Shown: in pieces, positions 7,463 to 14,336 of the stretch
Numbering within the stretch: position 1 is the first letter of the stretch
Layout: every line of letters begins with the position of its first letter
The notes under the pieces: generated by a model
Seen by the model: only the letters and a program-made list of their open reading frames with translations
Databases searched by the model: none
What the model was told of the DNA's origin: nothing
Made by a program: the position numbers and the translations under genes
Assembly: GCF_002128425.1 (NCBI RefSeq)
Contig: NZ_NESS01000005.1
Coordinates: 186,001 to 250,000 of the forward strand
Source: Gottfriedia acidiceleris
GTDB lineage: Bacteria; Bacillota; Bacilli; Bacillales; Bacillaceae_G
DNA length: 64,000 nucleotides
Direction: 5' to 3'

Positions 7463-8692
7463 TTAATCCACTTTAACTGAACTAAGTTCAAATGCATCAT
7501 GAAGTGCAGTAACTGCTTCGACCATATCTTCATTTTTGACAAGCACCCAAATAGTCGTATGACTATCAGCTGATTGTAAAATTTGTATGCCTTTTTCAGC
7601 TAGTGCAGTTACAATTTTTGAAGTTACGCCAGGTACTCCTGCGATCGCAGCTCCAACTATTGATACTTTTGCACATCCTGTTGTGTATGAAGGCTCATAG
7701 CCAATTCCTTTTAATACATCAATTGCTTTTGAAGCAACTTCATCACTTACAGTGTATACTACACCATTAGGTGAGATATTAATAAAGTCTACACTTATTC
7801 CTTTATTTGCCATTGCTTTAAATACTTGAGAATGTAAATCAAAAGTATGTTCCTTTGAAGTTACTCTAATTTGAGTAACATTCGGTACATGTGCAATTCC
7901 TGTAATTAAACGATCTTGAATATTTTCACCAATAATTCGTTGTGTAGGATTCGATGTTACTAGTGTACCTAAACTATTTGAATAAGTTGAACGAATTCGA
8001 ATTGGCACTTTCCCCTGCATTGCGATTTCTACAGCCCTTGGATGAATTACTTTCGCTCCTTGATATGCCATATTACAAATTTCAGCATAAGTAACAACTG
8101 ATAAAGGTCTTGCTTCTTTTACGATCCTTGGATCTGCTGTCATTACGCCTTCAACGTCAGTAAAGATTTCGATTGTTTCTGCGCCAACAGCAACCCCAAG
8201 AGCAGAAGCAGAAGTATCACTTCCACCTCTACCTAATGTCGTGATATCACCATTAGTTGTTGATCCTTGGAATCCTGCGACTACTACAACATCAAAGTTT
8301 TCTAGCTCTTTAATTAGACGGCCACATTTCATATCAAGTATTTTTGCATTTCCAAATTCATCATTTGTTCGGAAACCTGCTGAAGCACCTGTCATTGCCA
8401 TAGCATGAATACCATTTTCATTCAATAAATTTGAAAAAACAATAGATGAAATTGTTTCACCACATGACATTAATAAATCAAGTTCTCTTTGTGTAACCTT
8501 ACTTTTTTTCGCGCCAACTAGATTTAATAGTGTATCTGTTGCATATGGTTCACCTTTTCGTCCCATTGCAGATACAACTACAACTATTTTATATCCTTTT
8601 TCTAATGCTTCTTTTATATGCTTAAGTGCGTGCTTTCTTCCATTTTCGTCACGTACTGAAGTCCCTCCAAATTTTTGGACTAATATTTTCAT
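7463..8692 (-). CDS. dapG: Aspartokinase I (diaminopimelate-sensitive type)
   Basis: Phosphorylates aspartate, the first step of the aspartate family pathway. 409 residues, close to the 404 of B. subtilis DapG. The kinase domain opens with VQKFGGTSVRDENG and holds LGRGGSDTSASALG. The C-terminal ~150 residues form two ACT domains (TQIRVTSKEHTFDLHSQVF and AKVSIVGAAIAGVPGVTSK) for feedback binding. The gene lies 25 bp downstream of asd and 20 bp upstream of dapA. Context identifies it as dapG rather than lysC; the feedback effector (meso-diaminopimelate) is inferred from that orthology. Confidence 0.94.
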   Translation of the reverse strand: MKILVQKFGGTSVRDENGRKHALKHIKEALEKGYKIVVVVSAMGRKGEPYATDTLLNLVGAKKSKVTQRELDLLMSCGETISSIVFSNLLNENGIHAMAMTGASAGFRTNDEFGNAKILDMKCGRLIKELENFDVVVVAGFQGSTTNGDITTLGRGGSDTSASALGVAVGAETIEIFTDVEGVMTADPRIVKEARPLSVVTYAEICNMAYQGAKVIHPRAVEIAMQGKVPIRIRSTYSNSLGTLVTSNPTQRIIGENIQDRLITGIAHVPNVTQIRVTSKEHTFDLHSQVFKAMANKGISVDFINISPNGVVYTVSDEVASKAIDVLKGIGYEPSYTTGCAKVSIVGAAIAGVPGVTSKIVTALAEKGIQILQSADSHTTIWVLVKNEDMVEAVTALHDAFELSSVKVD

Positions 8693-8717: not shown

Positions 8718-9761
8718 CTAAATGATGCTTAACTCAATTAATCTTTCAGCAATTTGCACTGAATTCCAAGCAGCACCTTTTAATAGATTATCTGAAACGA
8801 TCCATAAATGGAAACCTAATGGATTATCTAGGTCTTTACGGATACGTCCTACGTATACTTCATTACTTCCAATACTGTAAAATGGCATTGGGTATAGTTG
8901 TTGTTCTGGATCATCTTGTAAAACGATTCCAGGTGCATCACTTAATAGTGATTTAAGTTCAGCTACCGATACTTCTTTATCAACTTCAATGTATACAGAT
9001 TCAGAGTGACCAGAAATTACAGGAAGTCTTACACAAGTCGCGCTAATCTGTAATTCAGGTAAATGCATGATTTTTTTAGTTTCATTAATCATTTTCATTT
9101 CTTCATAAGTATATCCATTGTCAGTAAATACATCGATTTGTGGAATTGCGTTAAAAGCAATTTGATAATGTTTCTCACCACTTTTTACCGGTAATACTGA
9201 TGGAGTTGCTTCTTCACCATTTAAGAATGCTTGCGCTTGTTCCTTTAAAGCTTCAATTGCTGTTACGCCAGCACCAGAAACGGCTTGGTAAGTTGAAACG
9301 ACTACTTTATTTAAACCAATTGTTTGACGAATTGGTTCAAGGGCAACAACCATTTGAATTGTTGAACAATTCGGATTTGCAATAATACCTTTATGATTAA
9401 ATAAATCTTTGTCATTTACTTCAGGTACAACTAATGGCACATCTTCAGCCATTCTGAATGCACTAGTGTTATCTACTACTACTGCCCCTCTTTTAACTGC
9501 TTCAGGAGCTAGTTCTTTTGATACAGAGCCACCAGCACTAAATAAAGCAATATCTACACCTTCAAAAGCCTCAGGAGTAGCTTCTTGAACAATAATTTCT
9601 TGACCTTTATATGTTAATTTTGTTCCTGCAGAACGTTTTGAAGATAAATATTTAATTTCTTTTACTGGAAAATTTCTTTTTTCCAATGTTGCAATCATTT
9701 GTTGTCCAACCGCTCCAGTTGCACCTACTACGGCTACTACATAACTTTGTTTATTCCCCAC
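8718..9761 (-). CDS. asd: Aspartate-semialdehyde dehydrogenase
   Basis: Reduces aspartyl phosphate to aspartate semialdehyde with NADPH. 347 residues. The N-terminal nucleotide-binding loop is [12 protein letters not shown]; the catalytic cysteine is C132 in [12 protein letters not shown]; the C-terminal dimerisation domain holds [15 protein letters not shown]. It heads the asd-dapG-dapA group and lies downstream of the interrupted dpaB, the same order as in B. subtilis. Because the element in dpaB sits upstream, this gene may depend on its own promoter in vegetative cells. Confidence 0.96.
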
Positions 9762-9944: not shown

Positions 9945-10127
9945 TTATTGGAGATCACGATATTTTTCAACTAAAACAGGTTGAAGTTGTTTTCCTTCAA
10001 TAGAAGATTTCACTGTATCAAGTAATGAATCCATTCTTGCTACTAATGAATTTGGTTTTTTTATTGGATCATCTTGACCAAAGGGAATAAAATAGATATT
10101 TTTTGTACTCATTAAACGCATTAAATT
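9945..10127 (-). CDS. dpaB: dpaB 3' segment (codons 140-199 of dipicolinate synthase subunit B)
   Basis: This segment encodes NLM followed by RLMSTKNIYFIPFG and ends QLQPVLVEKYRDLQ, the C-terminal 57-60 residues of DpaB/SpoVFB. It is separated from the 5' segment (12,897-13,322) by the intervening element. The frame stays open upstream into element DNA to 10,235, but that extension has no Shine-Dalgarno, so independent translation is unlikely. Joining the two segments across the shared 9-bp core gives a 199-residue protein with no loss or gain of bases, against 200 in B. subtilis. The segment carries no internal stop or frameshift, which indicates that it is under selection and expressed after excision. 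Confidence 0.93.
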   Translation of the reverse strand, partial: NLMRLMSTKNIYFIPFGQDDPIKKPNSLVARMDSLLDTVKSSIEGKQLQPVLVEKYRDLQ

Positions 10128-10144
10128 ATGACTTAGAGGATAAT
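10119..10144. repeat. attL-type junction (left end of element)
   Basis: dpaB-side AAACG, core CATTAAATT (10,119-10,127), then element arm ATGACTTAGAGGATAAT. The dyad centre of the reconstructed attP falls between 10,123 and 10,124, so the crossover dinucleotide is probably AA, which is non-palindromic and would give the sites direction. Confidence 0.85.
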
Positions 10145-10274
10145 ACCTATTTAAATGGAATATCATTGGTTTAGGACACAGAAAAATTGACTTAAAAAGG
10201 AGTTGATTAAAGGATTTAAAAGGGGATTGAAACAAAAAATTAAGCTTAGTAAAAATAATTTTTAAGATCTCACC

Positions 10275-10811
10275 CTAATGATTGTAATGAACGATATATT
10301 TAGCGTAAACATAATCAAGTTGTTTTTTAATGCAAGTATTATAAAAGGTTTGTTTATAATCAGTATATAACACCTTTAAAAAACGATCTCTAATTGATTT
10401 AATCGTCAAATTATGAAACCGTAAATAGGTTTCAGTCCAAAATACCATATTATTTGAAAAAGTTTCATCGTCGATTTCAAAAAATGTTCGTACAGCTCGA
10501 ACTCCAATATTCCCCAGTAATACAGTAACATCCTCAACATCAACATTTGCATCAAGTTCAAAAATAATAATCTCATTATCGCTTCTAGTTCTATTATTTG
10601 TACCCTTAACTGAATATCCTATTAATTCACCTTTTGTAAGATTTAAAGCAACTACACCTTTAGCATAATCTAAAGCCCAGTTATTATAAGCTAGTTCTAA
10701 GACATCTTTTATTCTTACATTTGAAATTAAATGATCAGCAAGTTTTCGTTCGATCAACTTTTCCATTGTAAAAAATTGTTTTTTCAAATGATATTCGATA
10801 ATAATCAACAT
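10275..10811 (-). CDS. Unknown protein carried by the dpaB element
   Basis: A 178-residue protein I do not recognise. It is rich in charged and aromatic residues, has no signal peptide, clear membrane segment or cysteine motif, and begins either at the ATG at 10,811 or the adjacent TTG; AGAGAGGA lies immediately upstream and fits the TTG better. A third option is the methionine at residue 16 (MEKLIERKLADHL), which lacks a ribosome site. The middle part (GELIGYSVKGTN, IIIFELDANVDVEDVTVLLG) suggests an alpha/beta fold. It lies between the left element end and a hairpin at 10,876-10,898, converging on the dpaB 3' segment. It could be cargo, an excision accessory factor or a sporulation protein; nothing in the sequence decides. 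Confidence 0.6.
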   Translation of the reverse strand: MLIIIEYHLKKQFFTMEKLIERKLADHLISNVRIKDVLELAYNNWALDYAKGVVALNLTKGELIGYSVKGTNNRTRSDNEIIIFELDANVDVEDVTVLLGNIGVRAVRTFFEIDDETFSNNMVFWTETYLRFHNLTIKSIRDRFLKVLYTDYKQTFYNTCIKKQLDYVYAKYIVHYNH

Positions 10812-10866
10812 TCCTCTCTTTGATGAATATTTAGAATCACTATCACTATAATTACTACTGTTATGT

Positions 10867-10898
10867 AAAAAAAATGACAGATTTTTGAAGAATCTGTC
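10867..10898 (-). terminator. Terminator-like hairpin inside the element
   Basis: 8-bp stem GACAGATT / AATCTGTC (10,876-10,898, 7-nt loop) followed on the minus strand by eight T (A run at 10,867-10,874). It lies 55 bp upstream of the 178-codon ORF, so it either ends a transcript from the 61-codon ORF or limits read-through into the unknown gene. Confidence 0.65.
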
Positions 10899-11032
10899 TC
10901 AGAAGTAATTAAAAATAATTGAATCATCATGATTATGGTCATTATTATATCTGCACATAAAATGATTGCATATTTAGTTTTTTACCGTTGTAAAGTACTT
11001 TTCATAGAGGAATAGATCCTATCGAATAAAAA

Positions 11033-11054
11033 AAGCACCCTATTTTAGGTGCTT
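11033..11054 (-). terminator. Terminator after the 61-codon element ORF
   Basis: Stem AGCACC / GGTGCT (11,034-11,053) with a run of seven T on the minus strand, 13 bp beyond the small ORF's stop codon. Its presence supports the small ORF being a real transcribed gene. Confidence 0.75.
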
Positions 11055-11066
11055 GCTAAATTCAAC

Positions 11067-11252
11067 TTACTTGTCATCTTTTTTATACATTTCTTGTTTA
11101 ACAATCTTCCAACCAACTGTATGGACTTCTTCAATTATTTTCTTTCTATTTTCTTCTGTAACATCATTTGGCGCAATTATATTCACTTTTGTTTTTCCAA
11201 ATTGATAGGTAGCAGTAAATTCTGTTTGTTTACTCAGTATCACCACCCCCAT
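11067..11252 (-). CDS. Small element protein, candidate recombination directionality factor
   Basis: A 61-residue (or slightly shorter) basic protein: TATYQFGKTKVNIIAPNDV, then TEENRKKIIEEVHTVGW. The core pattern 'gkTkVnIiaPn-t-Eer' resembles small uncharacterised proteins that I associate with Bacillus prophages and serine integrases; this is from memory. It is divergent from the recombinase gene and ends at its own terminator. The start is uncertain: the ATG at 11,252 has no ribosome site, while GGGGGTGGTGAT lies just inside the frame, so translation may begin a few codons later. Large serine recombinases need a small partner to excise (SprB for SPbeta), and this is the only small protein in the element. 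Function is inferred from context only. Confidence 0.55.
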   Translation of the reverse strand: MGVVILSKQTEFTATYQFGKTKVNIIAPNDVTEENRKKIIEEVHTVGWKIVKQEMYKKDDK

Positions 11253-11333
11253 AATTCATTGTATGTTTAGTTTTATTACGGACTAACCAACCTTTTTTTG
11301 CCTATTGATTCAAAAATTAATTAATTCCTTAAT

Positions 11334-11364
11334 TTGACATATATATAGTCTATGAGGTGATTAA
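11334..11364 (+). promoter_or_regulatory. Possible mother-cell promoter and ribosome site of the recombinase gene
   Basis: CATATATA at 11,338-11,345 resembles the -10 of sigma-E promoters (CATA core), with AT-rich sequence at the -35 position. GAGGTGA (11,354-11,360) is a good ribosome site for the ATG at 11,365. TTGACA at 11,334-11,339 has no -10 at the right distance. The promoter class is a weak inference. Confidence 0.3.
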
Positions 11365-12861
11365 ATGGAACGAGTTGCATTGTACTTGCGTAAAAGCCGT
11401 GCAGATTTAGATGCAGAGGCTAGAGGTGAAGGTGAGACCTTATCAAAGCATAAAGAGCAGCTTTTAAAATTCGCTAAGGAAAATAATATAAATATAATCT
11501 GTATCCGACAGGAAATTGCTTCCGGGGAATCGCTTGTTTATCGGCCAGAAATGTTAAAGCTTTTACAAGAAGTTGAAGAATTTAAATATGATGGTGTGTT
11601 AGTAATGGATATGGATCGTCTTGGACGCGGTAATATGAAGGAACAGGGTATTATTTTAGAAACGTTCAAATCATCTAGAACAAAAATTATTACCCCAAGA
11701 AAGACCTATGATCTTCATGATGAATTTGATGAGGAATACAGTGAGTTTGAGGCATTTATGGCGCGAAAAGAATTAAAAATAATTACTCGTAGGCTTCAAC
11801 GTGGTCGAATTTTATCAGTCCAAAGAGGAAATTATATCGGAACCTTTGCACCTTATGGATATGAGATTTATGAGACGAAGGAATTCCGCTCTTTACGTAT
11901 TAATAGCAATCAGGCCAAAGTAGTGAGAAGTATTTTTGAATGGTATACGAAGGACTTGATTGGTGCAAATGAAATAGCTAACCGTTTAAACCAAATGAAT
12001 ATCCCCTCCTATACTGGAAAAAAATGGAGTTACCATTCAATTTTGGAGATGATAAAAAATCCTATTTATATTGGTAAGGTGACTTGGAATAAAAAATCAA
12101 GTAAGGGTATAAGAAAACCAAAATCTGAATGGTTAATTGTTGATGGAAAACATGAAGCAATCATTGATCCTGATCTATACAATTTAGCACAAGATATTTT
12201 AAATAGTCGATACCATGCACCTTATAATAGTAAATTAAGTAATCAGCTCGCTGGATTAATTTTTTGCAGTAAATGCGGATCAAAGTTACAGCAGCGTTAT
12301 CCAAAAGGTAAGCCTAGACAAATTGTGTGTACAAATAATCGTTGTAACACTCGATCTTCATATACTCATTTAATTGAAGAGAGACTCCTACAAGGGTTGG
12401 AAATTTGGTTAAAAGAATATAAAATAAGTTTTACGAATCAAACCGACCAGGAAGATTTTGAAGTGATTAATTTAAAAAAGCAAGCACTTAAACAAATAGA
12501 AAATGATTTAAATGAATTAATAAAACAAAAAAATAATTTATTCAATTTACTAGAACGTGGTGTCTATGATGAATCAATCTACAGTGAACGTTCTGAAATC
12601 CTCTCTAATCGACTAAAAGAACTTTCAAATAGTAAGACATTAATTTTGGATGAACTGGCTATATACAACAATAGAGAGCTGCTAAATGAACAAGTTATTC
12701 CAACCTTTGAAAAAGTGTTAGATTTGTATTACAAAACAACTGATATAGAACTTAAAAATCGTCTCTTGAAATCAGTTTTATTTAAAGTTGAGTATCAAAA
12801 AGAACAACATCAAAAACTTGATGATTTTACACTTATACTTTACCCGAAGCTTCCCCAATGA
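11365..12861 (+). CDS. Large serine recombinase of the dpaB element
   Basis: 498 residues in the usual large-serine-recombinase order. Residues 1-140 are the resolvase-type catalytic domain with YLRKSRAD (nucleophile Ser11), the IASGES motif, MDRLGRGN and the EFEAFMARKELKIITRRL helix. Residues ~155-270 are the recombinase domain (GYEIYE, NIPSYTGKKWSY). At ~300-335 is a zinc ribbon (FCSKCGSK, then CTNNRCNTRS). The C-terminus is a coiled-coil region rich in K, E and L. The catalytic end resembles SprA/YokA of SPbeta more than SpoIVCA. All catalytic residues are present, so it should be active. It is the only enzyme in the element and ends 36 bp before the right junction. It is predicted to excise the element and rejoin dpaB. 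Confidence 0.93.
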   Translation: MERVALYLRKSRADLDAEARGEGETLSKHKEQLLKFAKENNINIICIRQEIASGESLVYRPEMLKLLQEVEEFKYDGVLVMDMDRLGRGNMKEQGIILETFKSSRTKIITPRKTYDLHDEFDEEYSEFEAFMARKELKIITRRLQRGRILSVQRGNYIGTFAPYGYEIYETKEFRSLRINSNQAKVVRSIFEWYTKDLIGANEIANRLNQMNIPSYTGKKWSYHSILEMIKNPIYIGKVTWNKKSSKGIRKPKSEWLIVDGKHEAIIDPDLYNLAQDILNSRYHAPYNSKLSNQLAGLIFCSKCGSKLQQRYPKGKPRQIVCTNNRCNTRSSYTHLIEERLLQGLEIWLKEYKISFTNQTDQEDFEVINLKKQALKQIENDLNELIKQKNNLFNLLERGVYDESIYSERSEILSNRLKELSNSKTLILDELAIYNNRELLNEQVIPTFEKVLDLYYKTTDIELKNRLLKSVLFKVEYQKEQHQKLDDFTLILYPKLPQ

Positions 12862-12880
12862 ATTTGTTAACTGATTTGGT

Positions 12881-12905
12881 ATTATCATCTAAGTCACATT
12901 AAATT
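12881..12905. repeat. attR-type junction (right end of element)
   Basis: Element arm ATTATCATCTAAGTCA (12,881-12,896) followed by core CATTAAATT (12,897-12,905) and the dpaB-side CGTTCC. Excision would join AAACG-CATTAAATT-CGTTC as attB, which carries a short AACG/CGTT inverted repeat around the core. Confidence 0.85.
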
Positions 12906-13322
12906 CGTTCCATTTAAACCTAAAGCATCGTTTGTAGAAATACCTAAAACAACAGGTTTTCCATTTCTTAATGTAGCTTTAGCTGCCATTAAAACAGGGC
13001 TATCAGTTTGAGCATTAGCAAACTTACTCATTGAATTTCCTGTTAACGGTGCAATTACCATACAATCTAATTGTACTTTTGGACCAAATGGTTCCGCTCC
13101 TACAATTGAATCAACTGTTTTACGCCCTGTAATTTCTTCTATTTTTTCAATCCAGTCTTCACCTACACCAAACCTGGTTGTTGTGCTTTTTACTGTAAAA
13201 GTAACAACAGGGTATACGTCAGCTCCATCATCTACTAACTTTTGAATTTGAGGTACTACCTCTTCATAAGTACAATGTGAACCTGTAATACCAAATCCAA
13301 TTTTCTTGCCTTTCAACGTCAT
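12894..13322 (-). CDS. dpaB: dpaB 5' segment (codons 1-142), dipicolinate synthase subunit B
   Basis: Flavoprotein subunit of dipicolinate synthase, acting with DpaA in the mother cell to make dipicolinic acid for the spore core. The segment opens KGKKIGFGITGSHCTYEEV (flavoprotein fold), carries PLTGNSMSKFANA and ends LGISTNDALGLNGTNLM, after which element DNA supplies an immediate TGA (12,894-12,896). B. subtilis SpoVFB reads on as RLMSTKN, exactly what the distal segment encodes. In the unexcised state the product lacks the last 57 residues and is probably inactive. The start overlaps the dpaA stop by 4 bases (translational coupling). Confidence 0.95.
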   Translation of the reverse strand: MTLKGKKIGFGITGSHCTYEEVVPQIQKLVDDGADVYPVVTFTVKSTTTRFGVGEDWIEKIEEITGRKTVDSIVGAEPFGPKVQLDCMVIAPLTGNSMSKFANAQTDSPVLMAAKATLRNGKPVVLGISTNDALGLNGTNLM

Positions 13323-14306: not shown

Positions 14307-14336
14307 TATCTTATGAATCTTCCATTGCATTGGTGA
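14307..14336 (-). promoter_or_regulatory. Sigma-K-like promoter of dpaA-dpaB
   Basis: On the minus strand CATAAGATA (14,307-14,315) matches the sigma-K -10 form CATAnnnTA exactly, with the short -35 element AC (14,333-14,334) 17 bp upstream. Transcription would begin near 14,300, leaving a leader of about 80 nt. B. subtilis spoVF is sigma-K dependent, so position and class agree. Confidence 0.6.

Follow-up and report, generated by a model that had tools for sequence, protein, structure and literature searches.

Dipicolinate is the spore's heat-protecting chemical, and dpaB (spoVFB) is needed to make it: how, then, can a bacterium use this gene when it lies in two pieces? We addressed this question in a 64,000-nt window of Gottfriedia acidiceleris (contig NZ_NESS01000005.1, positions 186,001 to 250,000; coordinates below count from the first letter of this whole stretch), in which a 2,778-bp element interrupts dpaB, on the minus strand. 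Our analysis makes it highly probable that this is a site-specific element, vfbin-like and of the skin lineage, which would be excised in the mother cell and restore dpaB. Excision, the role of a small element-encoded protein, the mother-cell timing and the dependence of dipicolinic acid (DPA) on these events are what we infer. The borders of the element are as follows:

12906..13322, minus strand: 5' part of dpaB, upstream of the core (TIGR02852, 1.2e-71)
12897..12905, minus strand: 5'-side copy of the core AATTTAATG, at the dpaB/element border
10119..10127, minus strand: 3'-side copy of the core AATTTAATG, at the other dpaB/element border
9945..10118, minus strand: 3' part of dpaB, downstream of the core (TIGR02852, 7e-24)

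Both dpaB parts match the family spore_dpaB TIGR02852; when the two junction stretches were compared, the 9-mer AATTTAATG proved to be their longest exact match. The 5' frame (13322..12894, minus strand) runs for 142 codons to a TGA supplied by the element, and the 3' frame, on the same strand, spans 10127..9945 with the core at its start; joined across the core, the halves give 600 nt in frame, or 199 amino acids (aa) and a stop. A first-pass annotation of this DNA had claimed a stop of the 5' segment at codon 142 by an element-encoded TGA, continuation of the gene as RLMSTKN in the 3' part and an in-frame join of 199 codons over the 9-bp core, and each of these claims was borne out. It had also held that a second intact dpaB elsewhere would help to overturn its reading; the genome was searched, and no other match was found at E <= 0.001. 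In base composition, the element is poorer in G+C than its flanks (30.1% vs 34.1%).

The split is more than a chance event, because 11 of the 13 genomes examined from the genus have it at the same place, and the arms flanking the core are conserved. The other two, G001 and G004, have a whole dpaB and provide the uninterrupted relatives with which the first-pass annotation had proposed a comparison. Inside the element, we identified the following features:

12878..12896, minus strand: attP half-arm TGACTTAGATGATAATACC on the element side, an inverted repeat of the other arm, conserved in carriers and partly diverged in G008
10128..10147, minus strand: attP half-arm GGTATTATCCTCTAAGTCAT on the element side, from the conserved-arm comparison of carriers
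11365..12861, plus strand: large serine recombinase, 498 aa, with Resolvase, Recombinase and Zn ribbon domains (phrog_95 integrase, 8.6e-102)
11280..11289, no strand assigned: conserved box GGACTAACCA in the spacer of the divergent gene pair, identical in all 11 of the carriers aligned
11258..11265, minus strand: sigma-E-like -10 element CATACAAT ahead of the small gene (by eye; 9 of 11 carriers)
11067..11252, minus strand: small protein, 61 aa as listed, divergent from the recombinase; candidate recombination directionality factor
11033..11054, minus strand: terminator-like hairpin after the small gene (z -4.7)
10876..10898, minus strand: terminator-like hairpin upstream of the 178-aa open reading frame (z -2.4)
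10275..10811, minus strand: 178-aa open reading frame (ORF), found here in this genus only

This arrangement has the marks of a gene-intervening element: an interrupted mother-cell sporulation gene (dpaB is split, and a sigma-K-like promoter precedes dpaA), a direct core repeat with inverted arms whose removal restores the frame, and a large serine recombinase encoded by the element. The structural or replication genes of a prophage are not among its contents, as there are three ORFs with a good family match for the recombinase only, and profile searches matched neither of the two smaller ORFs to phage structural families. The 178-aa ORF is an orphan, with no Pfam or PHROG match, one NCBIfam match at chance level (0.093), one weak match (6.5e-4) in 397 other genomes of the class, no relatives by tblastn against phages and plasmids, and a poor fold model (predicted local distance difference test, pLDDT, 42). 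Neither terminator-like sites (3 in the region vs 1.8 +/- 1.5 in shuffles) nor sites from a sigma-70 promoter scan (16 vs 19.0) were in excess.

The attachment sites were then compared. In most carriers the rebuilt circle site, attP, reads GGTATTATCCTCTAAGTCATAATTTAATGTGACTTAGATGRTAATACC. It forms an inverted repeat centred on TT: in each of the nine carriers scored, 19-21 of 26 positions are mirrored; G008, whose arms and core are partly diverged and whose cores share only TTTAATG, and G009, which is broken at the core, were left out of this scoring. At the same centre, attB has 9-10 of 22 mirrored positions. A symmetric attP with a less symmetric attB is the usual pattern of serine integrases. 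The same att-site pattern is described for the element gin (PMC5595907).

A possible trace of the excised state was found in one assembly. In that of G009 (G. acidiceleris 1-17), the core marks the end of one contig and the beginning of another: the former reaches just to the last base common to attL and attB, and the latter starts with two post-core circle bases, of which one differs from attL (by eye). Of 13 genomes, only this one matched the circle-junction pattern, and it did so at the contig end just described; the attB pattern matched in G001 and G004 only. By a hand estimate (~180 ends, 5.1 Mb), the chance of a contig end falling within ~10 bp of the core is of the order of 4e-4. These observations suggest that excised DNA was present in the sequenced G009 culture. 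As to timing, a promoter lies ahead of the operon:

14307..14334, minus strand: sigma-K-like promoter of dpaA-dpaB, ACC-N16-CATAAGATA, preceding dpaA in 12 of the 13 genus genomes

This sequence, which we take to be a sigma-K-type promoter, is not found before dpaA in G004; a looser form, AC-N16/17-CATAnnnTA, has 6 occurrences in 128 kb of strand. Its position before dpaA implies that the need for dpaB would come late and in the mother cell, a cell that could lose the element without harm to the lineage. Ahead of the small gene, CATACAAT (9 of 11 carriers) or CATATAAT (2 of 11, both by eye) is presumably a sigma-E-type -10; there are 6 copies of CATACAAT in 128 kb of strand.

The circle-junction bases at the G009 contig end carry no timing, and the recombinases SprA and CD1231 are described as expressed in vegetative cells (PMC4191935, PMC5025042). 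Both points would fit excision at a low constitutive frequency, by which the population would become mixed, as in bet-hedging or phase variation, and DPA production would be limited to cells that had lost the element. We give this a small chance: under constitutive excision, germ-line loss should cure the element, yet 11 of the 13 genomes keep it, and a sigma-E-like -10 precedes the small gene. Excision confined to the sporulating mother cell is the account we prefer, and we followed its consequences through the genus.

Outside Gottfriedia, dpaB was whole in 6 of 6 genomes from sister genera of the same family, and among the 47 other genomes searched together with the 13 of the genus, two strong dpaB pieces occurred in G050 only. 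The pieces of G050 overlap (profile 1-159 and 153-187), perhaps through a frameshift, and do not represent the Gottfriedia split. Within the genus, records named Gottfriedia acidiceleris, G. luciferensis and Bacillus sp. (8 of 13 loci) have recombinases that are 77-96% identical. Nine of the ten measurable elements are 2,778 to 3,042 bp long and that of G008 (Bacillus sp. EAC) is 9,227 bp, the element of G009 being broken by the contig end and not counted among the ten. The extra genes of G008 sit between the 178-aa ORF and the small gene; named by eye, they encode large secreted WxL-like surface proteins and an Mga-type helix-turn-helix regulator.

A tree of dapG, asd, dpaA and mlpA placed G004 outside the rest of the genus and paired G001 with G008 (support 59; 82 in the dpaB tree). 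The simplest account would be a single insertion once G004 had branched off, followed by a clean loss of the element in G001; two insertions at this one dpaB position are a possible alternative. The whole dpaB of G001, beside a probable carrier sister, suggests clean germ-line loss. The unrooted recombinase tree broadly agrees, with G008 most distant, then G002 and G007; inside the main group its order differs, in part with weak support.

Are the two halves of dpaB still in use? Across 55 carrier pairs, which are not independent, the median ratio of nonsynonymous to synonymous substitution rates (dN/dS) was 0.014 for the 5' part and 0.049 for the 3' part, as compared to 0.056 for dpaA, 0.045 for asd, 0.032 for dapG and 0.054 for mlpA. 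Both halves are as constrained as their intact neighbours, and no stops occur within the aligned stretches (85% or more of every gene); both parts are free of decay, just as the first-pass annotation had maintained. The strong constraint on the 3' part argues that it is used as protein. For the element genes, the median was 0.086 (recombinase), 0.27 (small gene) and 0.22 (178-aa ORF), with finite values for 54, 54 and 47 of the 55 pairs, respectively.

Purifying selection on both halves would likewise be expected if they were translated separately and assembled into a working two-piece protein while the element stayed in place, and the 3' part does have in-frame ATG codons at its start. We regard such a protein as very improbable: it leaves the constraint on the recombinase and the conserved att arms unexplained, no ribosome-binding sequence is seen by eye before the 3' part, and two genomes of the genus have a one-piece dpaB. 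Least credible of all, although the gene is interrupted in its assembled state, is a recent or dead insertion that has left dpaB a pseudogene in these strains, a reading that we rejected on dN/dS, with the insertion genus-wide at a median proportion of synonymous differences (pS) among carriers of 0.18-0.36 and the halves and element genes without decay in the aligned stretches.

For the preferred reading, excision in the mother cell, we propose the following mechanism. The sporulating mother cell would make the 61-aa (perhaps 56-aa) directionality factor, which would let the element's serine recombinase join both core copies; this joining would release a circle and restore the 199-codon dpaB, allowing the dpaAB operon, driven by sigma-K, to yield dipicolinate synthase. 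The forespore would retain the element, which would be inherited through the spore. Recombinase and small gene would together form a module of a lineage found elsewhere in sigK, with dpaB as its target here and little else carried.

Several observations weigh against this mechanism. attB lacks clear symmetry, although a different centre gives it 14 of 25 mirrored positions, and the two cores of G008 agree only in the seven bases given above. The evidence for a circle junction comes from a single contig end, at which a single base discriminates, and the case for excision is drawn from sequence. Ahead of the small gene, the -35 departs from sigma-E, and the small protein has no homology to SprB (2.7 and 3.6 bits). 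The element genes are under weaker constraint than the host genes, and a close relative, G001, is without the element, which is thus dispensable.

We examined the origin of the recombinase through its relatives. Against solved structures it matched SprA of SPbeta (9dxh/9dxd, E ~1e-49); SprA is 30% identical, and phage integrases reach at most 51% identity. Matches at E <= 1e-80 were present in 60 of 398 genomes of the class, its own genome counted. Twenty loci from among the strongest places in the class and five more distant ones, top-ranked and not random, were inspected: in 14 of the 25 (10/20 + 4/5) the end of the recombinase abuts a split sigK, as judged from the two longest neighbouring frames per locus, and in the remaining 11 its neighbour is another gene, a transposon/recombinase gene or a contig end. 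A tree placed the Gottfriedia recombinase amid sigK-type and phage relatives and separate from SprA and the recombinases of a second dpaB site (below); support for several inner nodes is weak (40-54), and one phage and one sigK recombinase are its nearest neighbours displayed. Judged by this tree and these neighbourhoods, the recombinase shares a lineage with those of split sigK genes, whichever of the sigK, phage and dpaB modules came first. The sigK of the G. acidiceleris genome itself is whole.

A profile built from the 11 Gottfriedia copies of the small protein revealed members at 17 of the 20 class loci. An enlarged profile found one at all 20, each divergent from the recombinase; three are weak (L108 0.0037, L109 0.013, L112 0.00035) and have no match with the Gottfriedia-only profile, and the enlarged-profile E-values of the other loci are circular. 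The frame adjoins or overlaps the recombinase start in 16 of the 20 loci and lies 0.5 to 5.5 kb from the recombinase in L118, L120, L121 and L122, and no profile match was obtained among control ORFs (n=3,094). Phages gave no relatives by tblastn; profiles later found distant ones, with a family member near the recombinase of phage THSA-485A and a weak member, a 72-aa ORF, on a C. difficile plasmid (1.3e-6 by the enlarged profile, no match by the Gottfriedia-only one); the recombinase of this plasmid is 47% identical. Relatives in the PDB were at chance level (best E 0.048), and the modelled structure is a hairpin and a helix (pLDDT 65). G002 has ACG where the others have the first ATG of the small gene, so translation probably begins about five codons later; the protein would perhaps be 56 aa long, from a downstream CTG/TTG start. 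From its company and position, the small protein is a likely directionality factor.

CD1234, the proven directionality factor of C. difficile skin, is 72 aa long (PMC5025042), the same length as the C. difficile ORF above, with which it may be identical. The circular 57-kb C. difficile record NZ_CP149754.1 has a skin-like recombinase, Cwp26 and a predicted vanZ1 beside phage genes.

Taken together, we lean, with modest confidence, towards the view that a sigK-lineage module has been set in a second sporulation gene, pared to a recombinase, a directionality factor and an orphan, and kept as a genus-wide switch, and that the 61-aa family, so far unrecognised, would be the directionality factor for the whole skin-type recombinase lineage. 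The small-protein family offers a candidate directionality factor for many skin-type recombinases.

The Gottfriedia site is one of two in this gene. Among 397 genomes drawn from the order, dpaB was found in 381, and outside the genus, among the matches listed, two pieces at E <= 1e-12 were present only in G078 and G118, a criterion that splits with a smaller piece would escape. In both, dpaB is split at a different site, near profile position 80-90 (about codon 88), by elements of 21 kb and 11 kb respectively, whose recombinases are 28-33% identical to the Gottfriedia one. The halves of G118 rejoin in frame over GATTG to give 198 aa. By these comparisons dpaB has been hit independently at two sites, and it is a repeated target, since two other families of the order have it split at a different site by another recombinase. 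For G078, the join over the longest common word was out of frame, so its core was left undefined. In the same gene, the match of G199 contains two in-frame TGA codons.

A separate observation concerns sigK. In Petroclostridium sp. X23 (L046, NZ_CP124862.1) this gene is split with its halves in inverted orientation and cores GGTAATGAA at 7580-7588 and 9290-9298; flipping the 1,719-bp segment between them in silico gives one open frame of 237 aa. This genome had no uninterrupted match above the sigK cut-off, and its best long match is without the first 17 positions and is presumably sigE. Sigma-K of this one genome may be switched by DNA inversion rather than excision, and such an invertible sigK may be stranger than the Gottfriedia element itself. 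A literature search on sigK, inversion, serine recombinase and mother cell returned C. difficile work only.

How does the Gottfriedia element compare with known systems? Sporulation genes described as interrupted are sigK (skin), spsM (SPbeta), spoVFB (vfbin), spoVR (vrin), gerE (gin), kamA (phi3T) and yabG (yin) (PMC4191935, PMC5595907, PMC10747680, PMC6957869), and an infectious phage is reported in sigK of Alicyclobacillus (PMC13141910). The closest by target is vfbin, in spoVFB of Bacillus weihenstephanensis KBAB4 (Abe 2013, as cited in PMC4191935, PMC5595907, PMC10747680): by these descriptions it interrupts the same gene, encodes its own recombinase, which is expressed in sporulation, and is excised in sporulation. 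It is described with phage-related genes, whereas the Gottfriedia element has three ORFs in 2.8 kb.

With skin in sigK (B. subtilis SpoIVCA/Skr; C. difficile CD1231/CD1234), the element shares the pairing of a recombinase with a small protein, a short core with inverted arms, and recombinase relatives that lie beside split sigK in 14 of 25 loci. It differs in its target, dpaB, and in being far smaller, and its small gene is divergent from the recombinase gene, whereas skr is described as overlapping the spoIVCA start (PMC6957869). The element gin, in gerE of B. cereus ATCC 10987, resembles it, by its description, as a non-prophage element with a 9-bp common sequence, for which a recombinase, GirC, and a directionality factor, GirX, are reported (PMC5595907); the gene that it interrupts is a different one.

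SPbeta provides the closest parallel in economy. An engineered version, SPmini, with sprA and sprB only, is reported still to excise in sporulation (PMC4191935), so that a minimal two-gene excision unit is not new as an idea; the claim of the first-pass annotation that this is one of the simplest developmental switches is fair, with the qualification that two genes had already been shown to suffice. SPmini is small by engineering, whereas the Gottfriedia element is naturally so. sprB, for which an extra regulator is suspected, is described with a perfect -10 and an imperfect -35 (PMC4191935), as is seen for the Gottfriedia small gene; unlike in SPbeta, the recombinase is only 30% identical to SprA and the small protein is without homology to SprB. 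Searches of the literature by title and abstract returned no account of this Gottfriedia dpaB element, nor of a natural, genus-wide minimal unit at dpaB. It would represent a natural, near-minimal developmental excision switch, and a clean system for asking why cells keep such interruptions, because two relatives have empty sites and the others have long kept the element. The kind is already known, from vfbin in spoVFB; the Gottfriedia element is a small, genus-wide member of it, of the skin lineage.

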